Positions 276-11,953 of a stretch of DNA of 34,308 nt are shown in pieces. The position numbers were made by a program, and so were the translations under genes. Positions within the stretch are counted from its first letter, which is position 1; each line of letters opens with the position of its first letter. Below the pieces are notes generated by a model that was given only the letters and a program-made list of their open reading frames with translations, did not search any database and was not told where the DNA came from. Where the stretch lies: NCBI GenBank assembly GCA_015065665.1, contig SVPX01000011.1:1-34308 (forward strand). Reading direction: 5' to 3'. The stretch comes from Oscillospiraceae bacterium. GTDB lineage: Bacteria > Bacillota > Clostridia > Oscillospirales > Acutalibacteraceae.

Positions 276-300
276 AAAACCATAGATAGGAGTGGTACGG

Positions 301-804
301 ATGCTTTCTTTCAGACCTTTTGAGGAAAAAGATGCGCAAACTATTATTAGTTGGATTATGGATGAATTTTCTTTCAGACAATGGTCTGCTGATACATATA
401 AGGATTATCCTGTAAAACCTGATGATATCATAAACCGTTACAAGGAGATTAAGGATAATCATAAGGATGGAGTTTATCTTCTTATGTTTACAGATGATGA
501 CAATACCATCGGCCATCTGATTGTTCGTGTTATTGATAAAGAGAAGGGACTTGTCCGCTTTGGTTATATTATTGTTGACAGTAATCTTCGTGGGCAGGGT
601 TACGGCAGTAAAATGTTGAGAAAAGCCCTTGAGTTTGCCCGTAATGAACTTTATGCCAAGCGTGTTACTCTGGGTGTGTTTGAGAATAATCAGGGAGCAG
701 CTACCTGCTATAAGGCAGTAGGCTTCCGTCAGATTGAGATGAATCAGTATACCATCAACGGTGAAGTCTGGAATTGCCCTGAGATGGAATGTGTTTTAGA
801 TTAA
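301..804 (+). CDS. GNAT family N-acetyltransferase
   Basis: A 167-aa protein of the Gcn5-related N-acetyltransferase superfamily, which transfers acetyl from acetyl-CoA to an amine. Seen: N-terminal motif LSFRPFEEKDAQTIISWI, a central beta strand LVRFGYIIVD, then the acetyl-CoA pyrophosphate loop LRGQGYGSKMLRKAL (R/Q-x-x-G-x-G/A type). The C-terminal part has VTLGVFENNQGAATCYKAVGF, the usual strand plus N-x-x-A-x-x-x-Y-x-x-x-GF signature. I chose the ATG at 301 over an in-frame GTG at 292 because that GTG overlaps the AGGAG ribosome binding site (288-292). Substrate unknown; small-molecule and protein acetylation are both possible. The lipoprotein gene starts 13 nt downstream, so the two may be co-transcribed. 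Confidence 0.85.
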   Translation: MLSFRPFEEKDAQTIISWIMDEFSFRQWSADTYKDYPVKPDDIINRYKEIKDNHKDGVYLLMFTDDDNTIGHLIVRVIDKEKGLVRFGYIIVDSNLRGQGYGSKMLRKALEFARNELYAKRVTLGVFENNQGAATCYKAVGFRQIEMNQYTINGEVWNCPEMECVLD

Positions 805-817
805 GGAAATAATTATT

Positions 818-1330
818 ATGAAAAAACTTTTGTTAGTATTTTTTACTGTTTTAATAGGCTTCGCTTTTATTTCCTGCGGTAATGACAGTTCGGTTCATAC
901 GGATTGGGATATGAATTCTGCTCAAAGACGTATTGAACAAGTAGCTGAGGCAGTTAAGAATAATGATAAAGAAAAACTAAAAGGTCTATTTTCAGTATAT
1001 ATTACAGAAGATAACGACTTTGACACTGACATTGATAGTTTTATGGAATATATTAAGGGAACGGTGGTTTCCTATGAATTAGAAGAAACTCCTGTTGCAT
1101 TTGATTATTCGGAACGTGAAGGTCAAAGAAAAAAGCTCATGTATTGGGGTACACTGTGTACCGATGAGGAGACGTATTCCCTTTTCTTTGTGGATTTTCC
1201 CACTGATACTATAGATGAGGAAAATGAGGGTTTATATACCTTGCGTATAATTAAAGAAGAAAAAGCGGATATGTTTGAGGGTACAATGGAAGACTGGGCT
1301 ACTCCGGGTATATATGTCTGGGATTTATGA
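818..1330 (+). CDS. Putative lipoprotein with DUF5104-like fold
   Basis: A 170-aa exported protein. A basic N-terminus (MKKLL), a hydrophobic core and lipobox FISC with Cys20 predict processing by signal peptidase II and membrane anchoring. The mature part is acidic and contains a short helix RRIEQVAEAVKNNDKEKLKG, then strands; this resembles small NTF2-like lipoproteins of Clostridia that are annotated as DUF5104. That family link is from memory of the pattern and is unproven. It sits 13 nt after the acetyltransferase and 19 nt before the next lipoprotein, so it probably belongs to one transcript. No enzymatic motif is visible. Confidence 0.7.
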   Translation: MKKLLLVFFTVLIGFAFISCGNDSSVHTDWDMNSAQRRIEQVAEAVKNNDKEKLKGLFSVYITEDNDFDTDIDSFMEYIKGTVVSYELEETPVAFDYSEREGQRKKLMYWGTLCTDEETYSLFFVDFPTDTIDEENEGLYTLRIIKEEKADMFEGTMEDWATPGIYVWDL

Positions 1331-1349
1331 TTTTAAGGTTGAGGTTTAA

Positions 1350-1730
1350 ATGAAAAAACTGGTTGCATTAATTCTTGTTGTTTTTATTTGTGTTTCTTTT
1401 ACTGCTTGTGGGGAAAAGAGTAAAATTATAGGCACCTGGCATACTTATGATCTGGGTGTTGGTATTGATTCTCCGGAGATTCCTCCCTATTATTCTATTG
1501 TTTTTGCACCTGACGGAACAGGCAGAGGCCCGATGGCAGGTCTTGACAGGCTTGATACGGTGGTTTTTGATTACACCATAGAAGATGATATTATAAAAGT
1601 TGTTACAGATTATGGGGATAAAATTGATATCAGATACTGGTTTGAGGGGGATAACCTCCTCCTTGAATGGAACAATTACACCCGTACACTCCATAAATAT
1701 TCAGATGATGTTATTATTGAGTGGCATTAA
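1350..1730 (+). CDS. Small lipoprotein, lipocalin-like/DUF5640-type
   Basis: A 126-aa protein with signal MKKLVALILVVFICVSFTAC; Cys20 is the lipidation site. The mature protein begins with IIGTWHTYD and continues as alternating short strands (YSIVFAPDGTG, TVVFDYTIEDDIIKVV, YWFEGDNLLLEW). A GTW start followed by a G-rich hairpin and repeated strand pairs is typical of small lipocalin-like lipoproteins in Firmicutes. It shares this plan with the next gene, so the two are probably distant paralogues from a tandem duplication. The ribosome binding site is weak (AAGGTTGAGG). Ligand and role unknown. Confidence 0.7.
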   Translation: MKKLVALILVVFICVSFTACGEKSKIIGTWHTYDLGVGIDSPEIPPYYSIVFAPDGTGRGPMAGLDRLDTVVFDYTIEDDIIKVVTDYGDKIDIRYWFEGDNLLLEWNNYTRTLHKYSDDVIIEWH

Positions 1731-1751
1731 ACAGAAACAGGAGGTTTTATT

Positions 1752-2114
1752 ATGAAAAGGTTTTTGGCAGTTGTATTGTTGAGTTTTATGTGTTTTACGC
1801 TTTTTGCTTGTAGCGATAAAAATGATATCAAGGGAACATGGGAATGTGAGGTTTCTGTATTGGGCGAGGATGTGCCTGAAAGTGAACATCTGGCATATAT
1901 TACGTTCAAAGAAGACGGAAAATGTACTTATGTTTACTATGTGGATAAGGAGGAATTCTCCAAAATTGATATGGAGTATACTGCTACAAGTTCTCAGCTT
2001 ACTCTCAAATATGAGGGAAGAGACCTTGTCTGTGAATATAAAATTGATGAAGATATAATGACTGTAACTTATAACGGCAGTACACAGACCATGAAGAGAG
2101 TCAAAGAGGGTTAA
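1752..2114 (+). CDS. Small lipoprotein, lipocalin-like (paralogue of preceding gene)
   Basis: A 120-aa protein with signal MKRFLAVVLLSFMCFTLFAC and lipid-attachment Cys20. The mature part starts DIKGTWECEV, then ITFKEDGKCTYVYYV, TATSSQLTLKY and IMTVTYNGSTQTMKRV: the GTW start, a G-rich strand hairpin and a closing hydrophobic strand match the architecture of the 126-aa neighbour. The AGGAGG site ends 8 nt before the ATG. It is the last gene before the bidirectional terminator at 2144-2178. No catalytic residues are recognised; a substrate-binding or envelope-stress role would be a guess. Confidence 0.7.
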   Translation: MKRFLAVVLLSFMCFTLFACSDKNDIKGTWECEVSVLGEDVPESEHLAYITFKEDGKCTYVYYVDKEEFSKIDMEYTATSSQLTLKYEGRDLVCEYKIDEDIMTVTYNGSTQTMKRVKEG

Positions 2115-2143
2115 CTCTTAAATCGTAAATTATATATAGAAAT

Positions 2144-2178
2144 GCACCCCGAAACTTTTTTGTATTCGGGGTGCTTTT
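2144..2178. terminator. Bidirectional intrinsic terminator
   Basis: A GCACCCCGAA / TTCGGGGTGC stem with a T-rich loop is followed by TTTT on the plus strand; the minus strand also has a T-tract after the stem. It separates the plus-strand lipoprotein cluster from the convergent hydrolase gene. Confidence 0.8.
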
Positions 2179-2193
2179 GTGTCTTGATTTGTA

Positions 2194-3093
2194 TTATCTG
2201 GAAAGCCAGTCTTTGATTATAGAGATGTCCTCTTCGTGGAAGCCGTGGATTGAGTCATCGTAGGTTATGAGTTTACAGGGGGTGTTGTTTTTGTCAAACT
2301 TCGCTTTGAGTTCTTCTGCCTGAGAATATGATACCTGCGCGTCTCCTTTGCTGTGAATCATCAGTACGGGGACTTTAATTTCATTTGCCCACATAACAGC
2401 AGAGCGTTTTTCGTATTCAAGAGGGAGCAATTGAGGAGGACCACCTATGCACTCTTCAAGTAAGGGATGCATATCTTCTCTTTCGTTGTAGGCTTTTGTA
2501 AGGTCGCTTACAGCAGAGATTGCAATAATCCTTTTAACTCTTAGGTCGCATCGTGCCAACATATAGGACATCATACCGCCGCGGGATACACCTGCTGTAC
2601 AGAAATCGGTCATATCTGTAAAGTCAAAGGTGTTTTCGCAAAAATTTACAAGGGTTATTATATCGTTGATGTCAGCACCGCCGAATTCATCTTTACCTGT
2701 GCCTGAATCGCAACCTCGGTACTGAGAAGCAATAACAACCCTGCCTGTTGCGGTGCAGATTTTAGCGGTATCAGTGTCGGTGAGTAAGCCGAGTCGGAAA
2801 TTTCCTCCTCGGTTATAGAGTATACATTCTTTCTGGTTTTCGCTGCTGCAATCAAGGGGAATAGAGATGTATGCCTTTACATCAAAGCCGTCTGAGTTAT
2901 ATGTGAATTTATAGCTTGTGCAGTATTTTGCATACTTGTTCGGCAGGTCAACCTTCTGAATATCTGAAATAGAATCTACACCCTCATAGATACTGAAGTT
3001 TACAAGAGCATTATTCTGCACCTTGGGGTTACAGCCTGCAATTGCAAAAACCGCAATACAAATGATTAATATTGCTGATAGAATTCGTTTCAT
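2194..3093 (-). CDS. Alpha/beta-hydrolase lipoprotein (S9 prolyl-oligopeptidase-like)
   Basis: A 299-aa lipid-anchored hydrolase. The signal peptide ends in lipobox IAGC (Cys21). The alpha/beta-hydrolase fold is shown by the strand and nucleophile elbow TAGVSRGGMMSY (G-x-S-x-G, Ser170), an acid at VPVLMIHSKGDAQV (Asp251) and a His at DDSIHGFHEE (His283), in the expected order and spacing. The oxyanion region YNRGGNFR (94-101) and VIASQYRGCDSGTG (120-133) resemble S9 peptidases/acylaminoacyl-peptidase-like esterases, so the substrate could be a peptide or an ester. The start is supported by AAAGGACG upstream and a good promoter. It is convergent with the lipoprotein cluster. Confidence 0.8.
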   Translation of the reverse strand: MKRILSAILIICIAVFAIAGCNPKVQNNALVNFSIYEGVDSISDIQKVDLPNKYAKYCTSYKFTYNSDGFDVKAYISIPLDCSSENQKECILYNRGGNFRLGLLTDTDTAKICTATGRVVIASQYRGCDSGTGKDEFGGADINDIITLVNFCENTFDFTDMTDFCTAGVSRGGMMSYMLARCDLRVKRIIAISAVSDLTKAYNEREDMHPLLEECIGGPPQLLPLEYEKRSAVMWANEIKVPVLMIHSKGDAQVSYSQAEELKAKFDKNNTPCKLITYDDSIHGFHEEDISIIKDWLSR

Positions 3094-3114
3094 AAAAGCA
3101 CGTCCTTTTTCTGT

Positions 3115-3143
3115 ATTATATCATAGAGATGATAAAAGTAAAG
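3115..3143 (-). promoter_or_regulatory. Promoter of the hydrolase gene
   Basis: On the minus strand: TTTACT (3143-3138), 17-nt spacer, TATAAT (3120-3115). It lies 22 nt upstream of the ATG at 3093. Confidence 0.6.
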
Positions 3144-3161
3144 GTATAAGGTCAGGCGGTA

Positions 3162-3190
3162 TTGCACAGATTTTTTTGCTGTGATATAAT
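3162..3190 (+). promoter_or_regulatory. Promoter of the Thr-rich lipoprotein gene
   Basis: TTGCAC (3162-3167), 17-nt spacer, TATAAT (3185-3190). It is divergent from the hydrolase promoter, with only 18 nt between the two -35 boxes. Confidence 0.65.
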
Positions 3191-3224
3191 GCAGACAGTT
3201 ACTTGATATTTCGGAGGCTTTTAT

Positions 3225-3788
3225 ATGAAAAAACGTATTGCTGTTTTACTTTTGGTGGTTTTATGTTTTGGTATGCTTTTTGGTTGCTCGGGTACAGGAG
3301 ATGGCTCTGAAACAACTGTAAATACAGAAACTTCAATACAGACTACCGGTGACCTTGTGACAGAAACTGCAGGTAATACTGAGAATACAACAGAAAACAC
3401 TACAGGAGTTACAACCGGTATAAATGGCTCAGAAGATTCTGCAAAGCAAACCCTTGTTGACAACCCAGAGGTAGCGGTTAAGATTATGGATTGCGCTACC
3501 GATGCAAACAACGGATTCATAATGAACACATATCTTGAAAACAAGACGGACAGCCCTGTTGTATTCAAGGTTACAGCATCTGCCTTAAACGGCAAGGATA
3601 TGCATCCTGCCTTTACACATGAGGTAAATCCCGGTGACAGTATTACTACACCTATGGTGTGGTCTGCGGACAAACTTGCTGAAAGACAGGTTACCGATGT
3701 TGAAGAAGTAAAAATTGAACTTCAGATTGTGTCCTACGGTGCAGAGATTAAAGAAATCTCAACTGATATCTATACAATTATTCCTTGA
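3225..3788 (+). CDS. Lipoprotein with Thr-rich linker and Ig-like C-terminal domain
   Basis: A 187-aa exported protein. The signal ends in lipobox LFGC (Cys21). Residues ~22-75 are a Thr/Glu/Asn-rich low-complexity linker of the kind that lifts a domain off the membrane. Residues ~83-187 form a beta-rich domain (VAVKIMDCATDANNGFIMN, TYLENKTDSPVVFKVTASAL, IELQIVSYGAEIKEIS). It resembles DUF5067/FxLYD-like Ig-type domains in which an unstructured partner is replaced by stable strands; exact family not certain. GGAGG at 3213-3217 lies 7 nt before the ATG. Monocistronic; no terminator is obvious immediately after it. Confidence 0.7.
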   Translation: MKKRIAVLLLVVLCFGMLFGCSGTGDGSETTVNTETSIQTTGDLVTETAGNTENTTENTTGVTTGINGSEDSAKQTLVDNPEVAVKIMDCATDANNGFIMNTYLENKTDSPVVFKVTASALNGKDMHPAFTHEVNPGDSITTPMVWSADKLAERQVTDVEEVKIELQIVSYGAEIKEISTDIYTIIP

Positions 3789-7393: not shown

Positions 7394-7420
7394 CGAAGTA
7401 ACAGATTTTCGGAGGTGATG

Positions 7421-7648
7421 ATGGTGAAACATCACAACAGAAAAATGATTGCTCCTATTGTTGTTTCAGTTTTGATGGTTGCATATTATGTTGCATACTT
7501 CGGTTTCCTGATTTCCCTGCTTGACGGAGTATGGAGGATAATTATCGGTGTTTTGCCCCTTGCTTTTATAGCTGTGACTCTCAAAGTCTGTGTGGAAAGA
7601 ATTATAGAGATAAAGAAAGGTGAAGAAGATGATATTAGTAAATACTGA
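7421..7648 (+). CDS. Small two-TM membrane protein
   Basis: A 75-aa protein with a basic N-terminus (MVKHHNRK), two hydrophobic segments (MIAPIVVSVLMVAYYVAYFG and VWRIIIGVLPLAFIAVTLKV) and a charged tail ERIIEIKKGEEDDISKY. GGAGG at 7411-7415 favours ATG 7421 (5-nt gap); GTG 7424 is also possible, and GTG 7415 overlaps the site. It overlaps the YbjQ gene by 20 nt, so the two are translationally coupled. Clostridial genomes often pair such a protein with YbjQ-family genes; the function is unknown. Confidence 0.7.
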   Translation: MVKHHNRKMIAPIVVSVLMVAYYVAYFGFLISLLDGVWRIIIGVLPLAFIAVTLKVCVERIIEIKKGEEDDISKY

Positions 7649-7946
7649 TTATATCAGTGGCAAAGAGTTTGAGATGCTGGGTCTTGTTAAGGGCAGTACA
7701 ATCCAGTCAAAGCACCTTGGCAGCGACATCGCACAAAGTTTCAAAACCCTGGTGGGTGGAGAACTTAAGGCATATAACGAGATGATGAATGATGCCCGTG
7801 CCCTTGCAACAAAAAGAATGGTAGCAGAGGCAGAGAGTATGGGTGCTGACGCTGTTGTGAATATCCGCTATGCATCATCTGCGATTATGCAGGGTGCAGC
7901 AGAGGTTATCGCATACGGTACCGCTGTAAAGTTTGTAAATAAATAA
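7629..7946 (+). CDS. YbjQ/UPF0145 family heavy-metal-binding-domain protein
   Basis: A 105-aa cytosolic protein of the YbjQ family (DUF74, PF01906), a pentameric fold of unknown function. Family pattern seen: MILVNTDYISGKEFEMLGLV, then VKGSTIQSKH, the long helix LKAYNEMMNDARALATKRMV, and the conserved core GADAVVNIRYASSAIMQGAA with VIAYGTAVKF at the end. ATG 7629 is chosen over the in-frame GTG 7620, because AAAGG (7616-7620) sits at the right distance only for the ATG. It overlaps the upstream gene. It ends just before the left repeat of the rpsI island. Confidence 0.88.
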   Translation: MILVNTDYISGKEFEMLGLVKGSTIQSKHLGSDIAQSFKTLVGGELKAYNEMMNDARALATKRMVAEAESMGADAVVNIRYASSAIMQGAAEVIAYGTAVKFVNK

Positions 7947-7955
7947 TGAGCAGAT

Positions 7956-8040
7956 AAAAACCCCGAAACCGTAAAGGTTTCGGGGTTTGTTGCATAGTTG
8001 CAAGGGGAGATAAATTTGCGTAAAGCGCAGATTATCTCTT
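7956..8040. repeat. Left 85-bp direct repeat (attL-like), with terminator
   Basis: It begins with AAAAACCCCGAAACC and ends with GCAGATTATCTCTT. The first third is a hairpin CCCCGAAACC / GGTTTCGGGG with flanking A and T tracts, which also terminates the YbjQ gene. The last nine bases (8032-8040) copy the final codons AAG AGA and stop TAA of rpsI on the minus strand, but no rpsI body follows. The stem is perfect here, whereas the right copy carries one substitution. Confidence 0.9.
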
Positions 8041-8158
8041 TGAGTTTTCGGAGTATCGTTTGTATAGTTCGCTATCGTTAAAAATCGTATATATTGTGGT
8101 GTCTTGTGTTGCTAAAATTGAATATCATTGCAAAATGTTTATAGTGTTTCATAAAATG

Positions 8159-8178
8159 TTGCACCAAATTTGCACCAA
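8159..8178. promoter_or_regulatory. Two TTGCACCAA sites one helical turn apart
   Basis: TTGCACCAA occurs at 8159-8167 and 8170-8178 (11-bp pitch), 119 bp inside the left repeat, in the gene-free stretch 8041-8192. Phased short repeats next to an attachment site resemble arm-type binding sites for tyrosine recombinases or excisionases; this role is inferred. Nothing else recognisable lies in 8041-8192. Confidence 0.35.
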
Positions 8179-8192
8179 TGTTTCTCCAATAT

Positions 8193-8405
8193 CTATTCTT
8201 TTGATTCGTATAATCCTTTTAGTTTGGCATACTGCTTTTTCCATGCCCGAGAAGGTTTGCGACATATACCATCATCAGACACAAATGCACATATTCCAAC
8301 GAGACCATTTGAACCACAGATATCAGGATTATTTTGCCTGCATCCATATGTTTGAGTTTCACTATCCTTATCGTTCAAAGGAGCATCAAATGGAACTTTA
8401 TGCAT
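8193..8405 (-). CDS. Small Cys-containing protein of the R-M island
   Basis: A 70-aa protein not recognised as a known family. It starts MHKVPFDAPLNDKDSETQTY and has four Cys in the segment GCRQNNPDICGSNGLVGICA and FVSDDGICRKPSRAWKKQY, enough for one zinc or Fe-S site, then a basic helical end. AGGAGGA (8418-8412) lies 6 nt before the ATG at 8405 and the start is 2 nt after the stop of the methylase gene, so it is a translationally coupled third gene of the operon. The longer upstream reading (to 8492) overlaps the methylase and lacks a site. It could be a DNA-binding accessory, an inhibitor or a nuclease partner; there is no direct evidence for any of these. Confidence 0.65.
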   Translation of the reverse strand: MHKVPFDAPLNDKDSETQTYGCRQNNPDICGSNGLVGICAFVSDDGICRKPSRAWKKQYAKLKGLYESKE

Positions 8406-8407
8406 GA

Positions 8408-10987
8408 CTAATCCTCCTGTTCCTGTGTAAATGCTTGTATCATATCTTCTATGACTCGTTTCTCTCTGCTCTTTACATAGTTGGAAATCCATTCAAAATC
8501 TATTTCGCCATCTTTAGAGGGTAATTCGATTTTCAAATCCAAGAATGTAGAATCAACATCTCTAACAAGACCTGATAACAATTTTTCCGACAAACCATTA
8601 AGTACGGTTTCAAGATATGTTGCCGTCCACCTGTCTATTTTGTACTTACACGATATTTTTCTCATGAATTGTCCTGCATACCAATCATTTTCTCTGTAAT
8701 AGAACACCATTGACAACAGACCCAAGCTAAATGTGCCAGCTTCATTCATTCCTTCAGAATCAATAAAACCAGTTTTTTCGCAAATACCTCTGTCTGTTGT
8801 GGTTCGTGTAATATAGTCATATGCTTCATCCGAATTATCAGGTATGGTTAAGTGTTCTTTGTTGTAGCTTGGAATTTTGTAGATATCAAATACTTCGGAC
8901 ACAGGATAAAGCTGTTTCTCTTTCTTCTTCAACATTTCAATACTCTTTGTGGATGTAAGGTTATGTTGATTAGAGATCCACTTGTCAATCTCCCATGACA
9001 AGTGAGCATCAATACTTGATACAAAACTGATATCTTTCGGGATATTACTTGTAGCAACATGCTTCTCAAAATTCCAGTCGTTGCCTTCAGCAGTAATCGT
9101 ATCCTCACAGTAAACCTTATCAATATCCCAAAGATTAGAATGAAACTGCGGATTCTTTACGGCATTAAATCCAAGTCTATAGAGTAAGTAAATATCCTGA
9201 TACCTTTCAACAGGGTGGTCAACTTCTTTAATACAGCGTTCAGTTCTCTTATAGCCATCATTTCTGAAGTCGATAAACTTAACTATATCATATTCACAGT
9301 TGTGCGGAGTCCCTGCCTCAAAAATATAAATACTTGTTTGAACATTCGCGTTTGGCATAAACAAATCCGCAGGCATCTTTATACTTGCGAGCATCTTATG
9401 TCTTTTAAGTATATTGGCAGTTGTACCGATTGATTTACCAGCACCAACGGAATCTTGAATAATAACGGCGGCTTTTCCGCCCACTTTCATATTATCAAGA
9501 CCGAACTCCAAGAAAGGAAGTCCGTTATCAACATAAGAAAATGGAGGATTGAGCAACAGCACATCAGCCATGAATTCGGTGTATATCTCTTTCGGTGTGC
9601 TAAATGTATCTGCTTTTCTGATTTTGGTGCTTCCATCGCCACGAAGTATCATATTAGATGCCGCCAATGTATACATTTTCGCATCAATTTCAACACCTAA
9701 TAGTTTTTCGTGTTTAATGGTCTCGATTTCTTCCGCGGCTCGTTTAGTACCCTTTCCATACACCTTGTTAGCGTCTTCTATCATTAGGTCCATTGCGGCA
9801 ACCAAAAATGCTGCTGAGCCAGCCGCAATGTCCATTACACGAGAATCTTTGTTCACGTTTAGGATTTTTGCCATCATAGAGGTTATATATGGCGGAGTCA
9901 GTACCTTGCCCAACGGCGCACCATCACTTAAAGCATACTTTAAAAAAGTAGAATACATTTCTGCCATGATATCAAGTGCTCCACCCGACAAGTTAATTGC
10001 TGTATATATATTCTCATACAAATACACAAATATTTGTTTGGTAATCGAAGCATCACCATCGATGAGATTGGCAACAGCCTTATCTACGGATGTGGGTATA
10101 TCTCTTGCGGCATCCAATGCGATAGACATCTTGAATGAGTCAATCATTATCGACCTTTTATCGGCTGGAATCTTTTTTTGACTCAGATAATCTTTTAGAT
10201 GAGACATGATAATAACACCGTCTCGTTTTTCTTCTGTTTGAATACCTTTCAAGTCATCAGGAATCAGACCTGAGTCAATGATATTTTTTTCATCATCAAG
10301 AATATCCTGCATTGACAACAACATGCCCGAAACATAAACCACTCTTTGTTCAACACCAACATTGTGATTGTTCATTAATTTGTTAAGGTTTTTAGCATGG
10401 CGGAGGAGTTCTTCTCGAGTCTTGATTAAAATACGATGTTTTTCGTCTTCAGTAACAGTCGCATCCTCATAAAACGCATCAAAGCTCTTTTTGCTTTCAA
10501 GGAATCCTAAAGAGCTATAATTCTTCATATATTTTGGCTCAATATAAGAAGAAAAAACATAATATGTTGAAATCTTTATACTTTCGCTATCTTCACCAGA
10601 TATACCAATTGCTATGACTTCATCATACTTTTTTGACTCAATCATATTTTTGGCATAATACACCGCACCATTTACAGCATAGTTTTTTATGGAATTCTCA
10701 TCCATTTTAATTCCAGACTTATTTGCACTAATGTGGTATTTGTTTCCTAATTTGTTCTCAATCACTACTGGAATCTTTCTTGATTCCAAATGGAAATCAG
10801 GAATACCAAAAAGTTTCTTGGATTTTGTTTTAGCTGCACCCTTAAGTGCTTCTTTCATATAATCTGACATAGCAGATTTTTCGTTAAAGTCTACACCCTT
10901 TTTAAGTCCTAATGCAGACAATATTTCTTTGACATAATCGTCAACATCAGCTTCAAGCGTGTACTTTTTGAAGTTTGATTTTATCAT
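8408..10987 (-). CDS. Single-chain restriction-modification protein: nuclease, N6-adenine methylase, specificity domain
   Basis: An 859-aa protein. Residues ~1-150 look like a PD-(D/E)xK nuclease domain: Asp64 in FGIPDFHL, then Glu77 and Lys79 in VVIENK (D-x12-E-x-K). Residues ~220-650 are an HsdM-type N6-adenine methylase: TPPYITSMM (364-372), SAM motif I VMDIAAGSAAFL (384-395), acidic motif II GVEID (431-435), catalytic NPPF (480-483). Residues ~690-857 resemble a target-recognition domain of type I S subunits (LYPVSEVFDIY, then WYAGQFMRKI, ending in a helical spacer). Nuclease, methylase and specificity on one chain is the plan of type IIG enzymes such as the BcgI-like group. No helicase motor (HsdR) is nearby. 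It is preceded 2 nt upstream by the XRE gene. Confidence 0.85.
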   Translation of the reverse strand: MIKSNFKKYTLEADVDDYVKEILSALGLKKGVDFNEKSAMSDYMKEALKGAAKTKSKKLFGIPDFHLESRKIPVVIENKLGNKYHISANKSGIKMDENSIKNYAVNGAVYYAKNMIESKKYDEVIAIGISGEDSESIKISTYYVFSSYIEPKYMKNYSSLGFLESKKSFDAFYEDATVTEDEKHRILIKTREELLRHAKNLNKLMNNHNVGVEQRVVYVSGMLLSMQDILDDEKNIIDSGLIPDDLKGIQTEEKRDGVIIMSHLKDYLSQKKIPADKRSIMIDSFKMSIALDAARDIPTSVDKAVANLIDGDASITKQIFVYLYENIYTAINLSGGALDIMAEMYSTFLKYALSDGAPLGKVLTPPYITSMMAKILNVNKDSRVMDIAAGSAAFLVAAMDLMIEDANKVYGKGTKRAAEEIETIKHEKLLGVEIDAKMYTLAASNMILRGDGSTKIRKADTFSTPKEIYTEFMADVLLLNPPFSYVDNGLPFLEFGLDNMKVGGKAAVIIQDSVGAGKSIGTTANILKRHKMLASIKMPADLFMPNANVQTSIYIFEAGTPHNCEYDIVKFIDFRNDGYKRTERCIKEVDHPVERYQDIYLLYRLGFNAVKNPQFHSNLWDIDKVYCEDTITAEGNDWNFEKHVATSNIPKDISFVSSIDAHLSWEIDKWISNQHNLTSTKSIEMLKKKEKQLYPVSEVFDIYKIPSYNKEHLTIPDNSDEAYDYITRTTTDRGICEKTGFIDSEGMNEAGTFSLGLLSMVFYYRENDWYAGQFMRKISCKYKIDRWTATYLETVLNGLSEKLLSGLVRDVDSTFLDLKIELPSKDGEIDFEWISNYVKSREKRVIEDMIQAFTQEQED

Positions 10988-10989
10988 AA

Positions 10990-11319
10990 TTAGTACGCCC
11001 TCATTCTTTCTCTAAGAGTTTCAATTTCAGTTGGATTGTTCATTAGATAATCCACAATATCTTTTGGTAGTTCGTTTCGTCCTTCTGCAGATTTATTATA
11101 AAACTCGTGCCGTTCATCACCAGACAAATGTAAGACATCGGCAATCCTATCTTGCATTTCAGGGGTAGGGGGCTTTACTCGACCGTTAAACACATCAAAC
11201 AGATATGTTTTTGATACTCCTAAATCCAACAGAAATTTTGCTTGAGACTCACTGTGGTCTTTTATTAACTGCACGAAATAAGCACCAAAACTACCTTCCT
11301 GATATTCTTTTTTAGCCAC
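10990..11319 (-). CDS. XRE-type controller protein
   Basis: A 109-aa helix-turn-helix protein. Helices FGAYFVQLIKDHSESQAKFL, LGVSKTYLFDVFNGRVKPPT and QDRIADVLHLSGDERHEFYN follow the Cro/C1 order, with the recognition helix at SKTYLFDVFNG. It reads GTG as start, with AAGGAGGGG 6 nt before it. It is the first gene of the island's operon and ends 2 nt before the methylase start. Small XRE proteins (C proteins) often time restriction against modification, and the direct repeat AAGTAAAT/AAGTAAAC upstream could be its operator. The C-terminal ~35 residues (LPKDIVDYLMNNPTEIETLR) extend beyond a minimal C protein. Confidence 0.85.
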   Translation of the reverse strand: MAKKEYQEGSFGAYFVQLIKDHSESQAKFLLDLGVSKTYLFDVFNGRVKPPTPEMQDRIADVLHLSGDERHEFYNKSAEGRNELPKDIVDYLMNNPTEIETLRERMRAY

Positions 11320-11337
11320 TCTACTACCCCTCCTTGA

Positions 11338-11400
11338 AAGTAAATAAGTAAACTAACTACCGTACTCTTATATTATATTATATACCAAATAAAAAAGCAA
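11338..11400 (-). promoter_or_regulatory. Promoter and possible operator of the island operon
   Basis: On the minus strand: TTGCTT (11400-11395), 17-nt spacer, TATAAT (11377-11372). Between the promoter and the ribosome binding site, plus-strand 11338-11353 holds AAGTAAAT followed by AAGTAAAC, an 8-bp direct repeat that could bind the XRE protein and give feedback control. Confidence 0.55.
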
Positions 11401-11401
11401 T

Positions 11402-11441
11402 AGAGTGGCACGAAAACTTTCGTTTCGTACCACTCTGTTTT
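11402..11441. terminator. Long hairpin at the right end of the island
   Basis: AGAGTGGCACGAAA (11402-11415) pairs with TTTCGTACCACTCT (11423-11436) with one mismatch and a 7-nt loop; GTTTTT follows on the plus strand. It lies between the island promoter and the right repeat and may act as a back-up terminator that insulates the island from rpsI readthrough. Confidence 0.5.
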
Positions 11442-11475
11442 TGTAAGAGAAGATATTTTAAAGGATTGCATTAGA

Positions 11476-11560
11476 AAAAACCCCGAGACCGTAAAGGTTT
11501 CGGGGTTTGTTGCATAGTTGCAAGGGGAGATAAATTTGCGTAAAGCGCAGATTATCTCTT
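11476..11560. repeat. Right 85-bp direct repeat (attR-like), containing rpsI terminator and end
   Basis: Same sequence as 7956-8040 except CCCCGAGACC for CCCCGAAACC in the hairpin. It contains the intrinsic terminator of the rplM-rpsI operon (11481-11508) and the final KR codons and stop of rpsI (11552-11560). The substitution leaves a G-U pair in plus-strand RNA and an A-C mismatch in the rpsI-sense RNA. Confidence 0.9.
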
Positions 11561-11953
11561 GGAGAACTGGGGAGCTCTACGTGCGCCCTTGAGACCGGGC
11601 TTCTTACGCTCTTTCATTCTGGGATCACGAGTGAGGAAACCAGCCTTCTTGAGTGCAGCTCTGAGAGCCTCGCTGTCATACTGAAGGAGAGCTCTGGAGA
11701 TGCCGTGACGGATTGCGCCAGCCTGACCTGTAACGCCGCCGCCTGCTACTCTGCAGACAACATCGAACTTTGCGCCTGTCTCTGTAAGCTCCAGGGGCTG
11801 ACGAACGATGAGTTTAAGTGTTTCAAGACCGAAGTAATCGTCAATGTCACGGTCGTTGATTGTGATTTTACCTGTACCCTGGTAAAGACGAACTCTAGCT
11901 ACAGAGCTCTTTCTTCTACCTGTACCATAGAAATAAGGTGCCTTATCGTACAT
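11552..11953 (-). CDS. rpsI: 30S ribosomal protein uS9
   Basis: A 133-aa ribosomal protein whose C-terminal tail reaches the P-site tRNA. Signature features: [20 protein letters not shown] near the start, the core [20 protein letters not shown], and the basic tail ending [11 protein letters not shown]. The start is ATG 11953, because AAGGAGGC lies 8 nt before it and the family begins at this point; an earlier in-frame start (11983) would overlap rplM. It is 17 nt downstream of rplM in the classic rplM-rpsI order. Its last two codons lie in the right direct repeat, so an integration event would have left the protein intact. Confidence 0.97.

Follow-up and report, generated by a model that had tools for sequence, protein, structure and literature searches.

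The 34,308-nucleotide (nt) stretch analyzed here (the window; contig SVPX01000011.1 of an Oscillospiraceae bacterium) raises a simple question: why does the 3' end of the ribosomal protein gene rpsI occur twice, with a self-contained operon between the copies? An earlier annotation made from the sequence alone (the first-pass annotation) had proposed that a restriction-modification (RM) island without an integrase had entered at this site. We consider it probable that the interval is a 3520-bp non-autonomous integrative element at rpsI, whose integrase would be supplied in trans. The earlier interpretation was thus partly supported: it was right in kind, and the attachment (att) site, the breadth of the cargo, and the family context had to be corrected.

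The rpsI gene (11552 to 11953, minus strand), encoding 30S ribosomal protein S9, is intact according to the open reading frame (ORF) list and a protein search, and its 3' end is the target. A repeat search placed two 89-nt copies at 7956 to 8044 and 11476 to 11564 (both minus strand), which are identical at 87 of 89 positions (two mismatches, 98%) and spaced by 3520 bp. Their first 85 nt contain one mismatch, so that the 84/85 identity and the spacing given previously are exact. The right copy comprises the final rpsI codons, the stop, a linker, and a terminator and forms one att junction. The left copy, with a displaced tail, linker, and terminator, forms the other; the sequence upstream of CTCAAAGAGATAA in it is not rpsI, showing that this copy is an orphan, as the first-pass annotation had stated. 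No third rpsI-tail copy was found in the window at up to two mismatches on the rpsI strand, and one match lies on the opposite strand. The GC content of the insert is 36.2%, compared to 41.2% and 44.4% in the flanks.

The repeat could also be a common terminator, a possibility raised together with the original proposal. We rejected it. In the own genome (1,744,447 bases in 104 contigs, 76.7% complete), the full-length repeat is present at these two places only; one further weak reverse match is a hairpin inside the left copy itself. None of the 97 other genomes searched has a full-length copy, and in 4 of them partial matches were found, mostly to the terminator portion. Thus, the terminator part alone recurs, and the full repeat is not found at unrelated loci.

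To delimit the att site, we set the rpsI-side copy against the distal copy in each of 15 elements with the same type of end as the window (type A; the labels A, B, S, and P denote motifs picked after viewing the data, G numbers denote genomes, and L numbers denote loci). The sequence AAGAGATAA, 9 nt of the core, was identical in 14 of the 15 pairs, the exception being the distal copy of G537, and the fourth base of CTCNAAGAGATAA was unlike between the two ends in 6 elements. Upstream of the core, the rpsI side ends with AGTTCTC (AGTTTAG in G011) and the distal side with AAAACTC (diverged in G250). After the stop, exact identity extends over 0 to 7 nt in 10 of the 15 elements, 16 nt in G110 and G044, 20 nt in G462, 54 nt in G011, and at least 60 nt in the window; in G044, G484, and G250, the ends are still similar beyond the exact run. 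A short shared core with differing flanks in 15 elements is the pattern expected from conservative recombination over a short core. The att core is the 13-nt CTCNAAGAGATAA at the end of rpsI, and the remainder of the 89 bp is linker and terminator. In the window, the core reads CTCCAAGAGATAA at rpsI (11552 to 11564, minus strand) and CTCAAAGAGATAA at the far end (8032 to 8044, minus strand), where it is preceded by the element sequence CCGAAAA. The first-pass annotation had recognized the signature of site-specific integration at rpsI, and its 85-bp repeat is not the att site. The insert has two junctions with a common core and arm repeats at one end, corresponding to the attL and attR sites of a cis-mobilizable element (CIME).

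The repeat pair could also have arisen without a site-specific recombinase, either by duplication in tandem or by homologous recombination of tails and terminators that resemble each other, and the long identity of the copies in the window and G011 speaks for it. Nevertheless, it is very unlikely in view of the short exact identity after the core (0 to 7 nt in 10 of 15 elements) and of the arm repeats and homologous inner ends that accompany different cargo (see below). Because the copies of the window, G011, and G044 share long identity, a target-site duplication, in which both copies are host DNA, was also considered; it was rejected as a general mechanism because of the same short identity in 10 of the 15 elements.

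The inner end of the window element (8032 to 8179, minus strand) is 92% identical over 148 nt to the end of the G011 element, which has other cargo. Comparison of the ends revealed a tandem arm-type repeat, TTGGTGCAAATTTGGTGCAA, with an 11-bp period at 8159 to 8178 (minus strand) and a decayed third unit at 8179 to 8189. In the genus, the type A members are the window, G110, G044, G114, and G011, with AAAACTC before the core; the TTGGTGCAA arm repeats are located at the distal end in the window and G011. Among 161 genus genomes, the arm pair TTGGTGCAANNTTGGTGCAA was detected at 3 places, each within an rpsI-tail element (control, 0). In an order sample of 394 genomes, drawn from a larger group and including four from this genus, it was detected at 19 places in 17 genomes (control, 0). 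Sixteen of the 19 are less than 5 kb away from an rpsI gene on their own contig. Two, on second contigs of G502 and G324, adjoin an orphan tail close to the end of the contig, and the stretch fetched there contains no rpsI; one (G220) is a repeat array elsewhere. An arm-independent pattern, AAAACTCNAAGAGATAA, was present at 15 places in 14 of the 394 genomes (control, 1), and 13 of these places have arms, exact or with one mismatch. The place in G407 contains an integrase 48% identical to that of L154 together with GATGTCC repeats, and the one in G457 looks like chance. Nineteen distal ends from 18 genomes align as homologous. In 16 of them, the arm pair is succeeded first by a TTTAT-like spacer, then by ACGATATTC-like repeats that vary in number, and finally by the core; ends without the full pair are those of G114, with one decayed unit, and of G110 and G044, with none at that end.

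Behind these homologous ends, the cargo varies. We examined 19 type A elements (G313, G461, G543, and the second G324 contig were left out), using the longest ORFs rather than annotated genes as cargo genes and measuring sizes from tail to tail. G114 and G044 have flanking genes in common with the window and different cargo at the same site, a possibility that the first-pass annotation had raised for relatives: a type II RM pair consisting of a D12 methyltransferase and a type II restriction enzyme in G114 (2465 bp) and a 128-amino-acid (aa) gene of unknown family in G044 (787 bp). The smaller elements contain a 73-aa ORF (G514, 710 bp), a YbjQ gene (G479, 803 bp), a 172-aa ORF (G526, 1054 bp), cargo of unknown family (G110, 1078 bp), a GNAT gene (G484, 1152 bp), two ORFs (G462, 1287 bp), a kinase-like ORF with GrpB (G250, 1322 bp), or a DUF2975-like gene (G324, 1552 bp). 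A 390-aa ORF was found in G327 (2128 bp), the type IIG system in the window (3520 bp), and cargo including MBOAT in G537 (4496 bp). In G502 (helix-turn-helix [HTH] and PAP2 genes) and G011 (262-aa ORF), the two ends are on separate contigs. The gene adjoining the arms points its 3' end toward them in all 19 elements: in 13 with distal arms (decayed in G114), it is in sense orientation to rpsI, and in 6 with proximal arms, it is in antisense orientation; the far end was not identified in four of these six (G339, G315, G412, and G081). For 14 type A elements, one or more cargo proteins were scanned against PADLOC, and matches were obtained for 2 of them, the window and G114. Because the cargo is varied and defense matches are this few, the rpsI end is a general cassette site that also receives defense genes. 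The term "defense hot spot" used earlier therefore captures the presence of defense genes among the cargo and is too narrow for the site.

In the window, a YbjQ gene with a small overlapping ORF (7415 to 7946) is located directly behind the orphan tail, and the cargo of the G479 cassette likewise consists of a YbjQ gene and a small overlapping ORF. The arrangement in the window may represent an older cassette; no third tail and no arms were found.

The window element itself encodes three proteins, all on the minus strand. A 109-aa helix-turn-helix protein (10990 to 11319; Pfam HTH_31) is the probable operon regulator. It is followed by an 859-aa type IIG restriction enzyme-methyltransferase (8408 to 10987), which matches Pfam N6_Mtase and Methylase_S and the PADLOC type IIG model PDLC03616 (614.5 bits) and thus combines methyltransferase and specificity domains in one chain. 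By sequence, type I M subunits are its best matches in the PDB. No Pfam nuclease match was found in the enzyme; a PD...ENK motif in its N-terminal part, read by eye, may be a nuclease site, and the protein is predicted to have restriction activity. The third gene is a 70-aa cysteine-rich ORF (8193 to 8405) without a Pfam match, homologs of which are located behind 2 of 13 related enzymes.

Could this simply be a conserved native operon of the lineage? Homologs of the enzyme at an E value of ≤1e-50 were present in 5 of 98 genomes, the own genome included, and the other four are 34 to 37% identical, showing that relatives do not all carry the operon, a point that the first-pass annotation had asked about. 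We rejected this explanation, since only 4 of the 97 other genomes have homologs, at this low identity, and close relatives have other genes at the site. Among the 13 related-enzyme loci in other genomes, the enzymes are 59 to 72% identical in 11 and 31 to 32% in 2. In L186 (labeled Robinsoniella), rpsI is located ~0.95 kb upstream of the related enzyme, and in L187 (labeled Blautia), an orphan tail, CTCCAAGAGATAA, lies roughly 150 to 170 bp upstream of the enzyme, with no rpsI found on the contig. Thus, in other genera, 2 of the 13 loci have a close relative of the enzyme next to an rpsI tail. In the other 11 loci, exact copies of the tail and of the arm pair were both absent.

Next, we consider where the integrase would come from. 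As the first-pass annotation had stated, the window insert has none: nine integrase queries, the ORFs, and Pfam revealed no integrase-like sequence. With the same nine queries, no intact integrase was detected in the bodies of 15 type A elements (13 of them complete and those of G502 and G011 partial) or of 5 type B elements. Since the window element has no integrase gene, an integrase would have to act in trans. The element thus lacks the own integrase of an integrative and mobilizable element (IME), and no relaxase family match was obtained among its proteins scanned with Pfam (an oriT was not searched for). By ORFs, Pfam, and integrase queries, the insert is devoid of integration and transfer genes, as is a CIME. 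The sole remnant is in the G324 type A element, in which 74 aa match the C-terminal residues 305 to 378 of the 383-aa L154 integrase with 46% identity. This fragment ties type A to the L154 class and indicates that at least one element lost an integrase. The integrase-bearing L154 element is flanked on either side by 11-bp repeats of its own, TTTGATGTTTA, and the 11-bp repeats of the rpsI-site integrases L154 and G407 differ from TTGGTGCAA. The own genome contains two matches to the phage-integrase family.

The G324 fragment also favors a different history, in which an integrase-bearing element at rpsI lost its integrase by deletion and remained as an immobile relic, a decayed CIME that moves only if a neighbor carries it. 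Decay to CIMEs is described for such sites in PMC5704250, and an arm-matched helper was not found in the genus. We regard this history as possible and rather unlikely: 14 of the 15 elements checked contain no recognizable remnant, small interchangeable cargo is located behind homologous ends in several families, and the type B end is common to integrase-bearing IMEs and integrase-less cassettes with three different cargos (see below). The word "stripped" in the first-pass annotation has some support from the G324 fragment; the conserved ends with varied small cargo are also consistent with a lineage of cassettes.

Viral contigs were also compared. Among those with the arm pair, 8 of 27 contain an L154-type integrase within about 16 to 570 bp. 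In the comparison set, 14 of 84 contain some integrase match, and an L154-type integrase is the best query in 2 of 84. The exact type A and type B end patterns were each found 0 times in viral contigs, and the AAAACTC tail pattern was found at 33 viral loci; the only one of these with an integrase match, L367, was discarded because it looks like chance in coding sequence. Twelve of the 51 IMG/VR tail-pattern loci (L305, L306, L311, L312, L316, L320, L321, L323, L338, L343, L349, and L350) have an exact rpsI tail together with an integrase 42 to 64% identical to those at the rpsI site and are candidate rpsI-targeting phages or IMEs.

The rpsI end of the genus hosts further element types. A search with the rpsI protein gave matches in 130 of the 161 genus genomes; DNA behind rpsI was fetched for 119 of the relatives' 131 places (12 near contig ends or with partial matches were left out), and 111 of the 119 loci comprise at least 300 bp behind rpsI. 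In G107 (L089 and L090) and G164 (L092 and L093), two rpsI matches are located on different contigs, reflecting duplication or mixed bins. In 798 kb of downstream DNA, rpsI tails with up to two mismatches were found at 33 places on the rpsI strand versus 2 on the other, and at three mismatches the strands were even (25 versus 29). A classified orphan tail was detected in 24 of the 111 loci, in the shorter locus L075, and in the window; in G100, G177, and G191, tails are located further off on the same contig. Integrase-bearing elements use the rpsI site in these three genomes, and IMEs and prophages with an integrase occupy this site with other ends.

In the type B end, GCAAAAGCCCTGTAAACAAGCC...TTTGCGTTTGAAAAG precedes the core. 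The IMEs of G100 (11.8 kb) and G177 (14.7 kb), each with a 350-aa integrase, are delimited by this end, as are cassettes that have no integrase and encode a YhcG-type nuclease (L096), an HNH nuclease (L128), or a pair of 225- and 233-aa proteins (L065, L069, L091, and L092). Type B ends thus occur on integrase-bearing and integrase-less elements alike. The gene pair (861 to 2233 in L069), found in the type B cassettes of four genomes, has no PADLOC match. In L128 (G039), a YhcG-type nuclease gene directly follows the far tail of the HNH cassette, so that two candidate defense genes stand in succession. The G100 element (610 to 12416 in L229) is complete, with a tyrosine integrase, an HTH gene, and a Mob_Pre-type relaxase, and is followed by a 157-bp short unit. 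Type P comprises elements with a 385-aa integrase (L156, L231, and L242). Type S, to which 18 of the 30 classified tails belong, comprises units of ~110 to 190 bp with a hairpin; such units (hairpin CAGTCC..GGACTG, TTTTCTTAACGC, and an rpsI tail) were seen in L069, L081, L086, L101, L102, L117, L133, L142, L150, L155, and L157. They are too small for an ordinary gene and are possibly cassettes resembling miniature inverted-repeat transposable elements (MITEs). Arrays also occur: L069 shows the order rpsI-S-B-S, and L156 shows P-S-B, with three mismatches in its S copy. In L063 (G010), genes for dockerin-bearing amylase-like and leucine-rich-repeat proteins a few kilobases behind rpsI (300 to 3748) hint at a cellulosome- or amylosome-type organism.

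This survey also bears on whether the arrangement in the window is an assembly artifact. The metagenome-assembled genome consists of 104 contigs, and a number of the relatives' contigs stop just behind rpsI. Nevertheless, an artifact is extremely improbable, because the architecture recurs across many independent assemblies and because G100, a one-contig genome, contains an integrase-bearing element with the same tail duplication.

Taken together, we favor a 3520-bp element that was integrated in trans. In the proposed mechanism, a tyrosine integrase would have joined a circular form to the end of rpsI by recombination at the core CTCNAAGAGATAA, which both contain. The coding sequence of rpsI would remain intact and acquire an element-borne linker and terminator, and the displaced rpsI tail would be left at the far end as the orphan copy. 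Of the recombination system, the element would have kept the recombinase binding sites (core and 11-bp arm repeats) and not the integrase gene; the integrase, most likely one of the L154/G407 class, would be provided by a phage or IME. The cargo, regulator and type IIG enzyme, would be one of many in an order-wide cassette family. The repeats, core, arm repeats, homologous ends, varied cargo, and lack of an integrase inside the element are observed directly, and the circular intermediate, the trans-acting integrase, and present-day mobility are inferred.

Several points weigh against this explanation. The circular form of the window element is one that we infer, and no same-species empty site was found in a collection with one genome per species. 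An intact integrase with TTGGTGCAA arms at rpsI was not found, and the viral comparison set is not a clean control, since 12 of its 51 tail-pattern loci carry the rpsI-type integrases mentioned above. The arm pair is located at the rpsI-proximal end in G110 (one mismatch) and G044, and G114 retains one decayed unit only. Finally, the two copies in the window agree over all 89 bp, beyond what a 13-nt core explains. This suggests that the linker and terminator of the element already resembled those of the target; the tail itself may have come from a related element, or gene conversion may have followed later.

More tentatively, the rpsI end might be a single-site, non-integron cassette platform in the order, a broader proposal that we consider possible and less likely than not. 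Modules of one to a few genes, with the core-plus-arm end always behind a gene 3' end, would be stackable, would be moved wholly in trans by arm-compatible phage or IME integrases, and would exchange defense and ordinary genes between families. Many small defense genes and islands have no recombinase, and their route of spread is unclear; the rpsI locus offers a concrete, searchable case. Here, recognizable ends mark the limits of cassettes that lack an integrase and are located at a single housekeeping gene, in several families of an order; their cargo includes restriction systems. The conserved ends allow automatic delimitation of such cassettes, and trans mobilization of small islands by passing phage or IME integrases becomes testable.

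How does the window element compare to known systems? As a type IIG system (PADLOC PDLC03616), with its fused methyltransferase and specificity domain, the enzyme is ordinary, and its placement at rpsI is the distinguishing point. Literature searches for rpsI as an integration hotspot with defense genes, for an rpsI prophage in Ruminococcus, and for integrase-less cassettes returned no papers, and we found no description, in the literature searched, of integrase-less rpsI cassettes that occur across an order, have recognizable arm-plus-core ends, and carry small, interchangeable cargo. Clusters of attC sites lacking integron integrases (CALIN arrays) and MITEs (PMC11389934) are similar in being non-autonomous, moved in trans, and cassette-like, and arrays also occur at rpsI. 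In contrast to CALIN arrays, the target here is rpsI and the ends look like a phage-type core plus arms; the ends were compared with rpsI-site elements only, and attC was not searched for.

Tyrosine-integrase elements of Streptococcus are known to target rpsI (PMC4701971, PMC5704250, and PMC5090054). IMESag-rpsI and other integrative and conjugative elements (ICEs) and IMEs there are located at the rpsI 3' end, as here, and the G100 and G177 IMEs likewise have a tyrosine integrase and a Mob_Pre-type relaxase. The streptococcal elements encode integrase and relaxase, neither of which was detected in the window element. With CIMEs (PMC5704250), the window element shares attL and attR without integration and transfer genes. 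However, CIMEs are described as decayed ICEs or IMEs, whereas the window element contains no remnant of transfer genes and is one of a set whose ends are conserved and whose small cargo varies.

The closest precedent is McCI_IMD0819 of Macrococcus caseolyticus, which PMC5341023 describes as a 2,773-bp rpsI island with three ORFs, direct repeats, and a sequenced circular form. McCI adjoins an integrase-bearing island in tandem, and the McRI_mecD islands are likewise inserted at rpsI. Like the window element, these islands are located at the rpsI 3' end and are bounded by direct repeats that include the displaced tail. McCI differs in its tandem integrase-bearing island, none of which was found at the window locus, and in its longer repeats (DR3, 404 bp). 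By analogy, the window element may work like McCI or a CIME; compared to McCI, the integrase-less elements described here form a family across an order.

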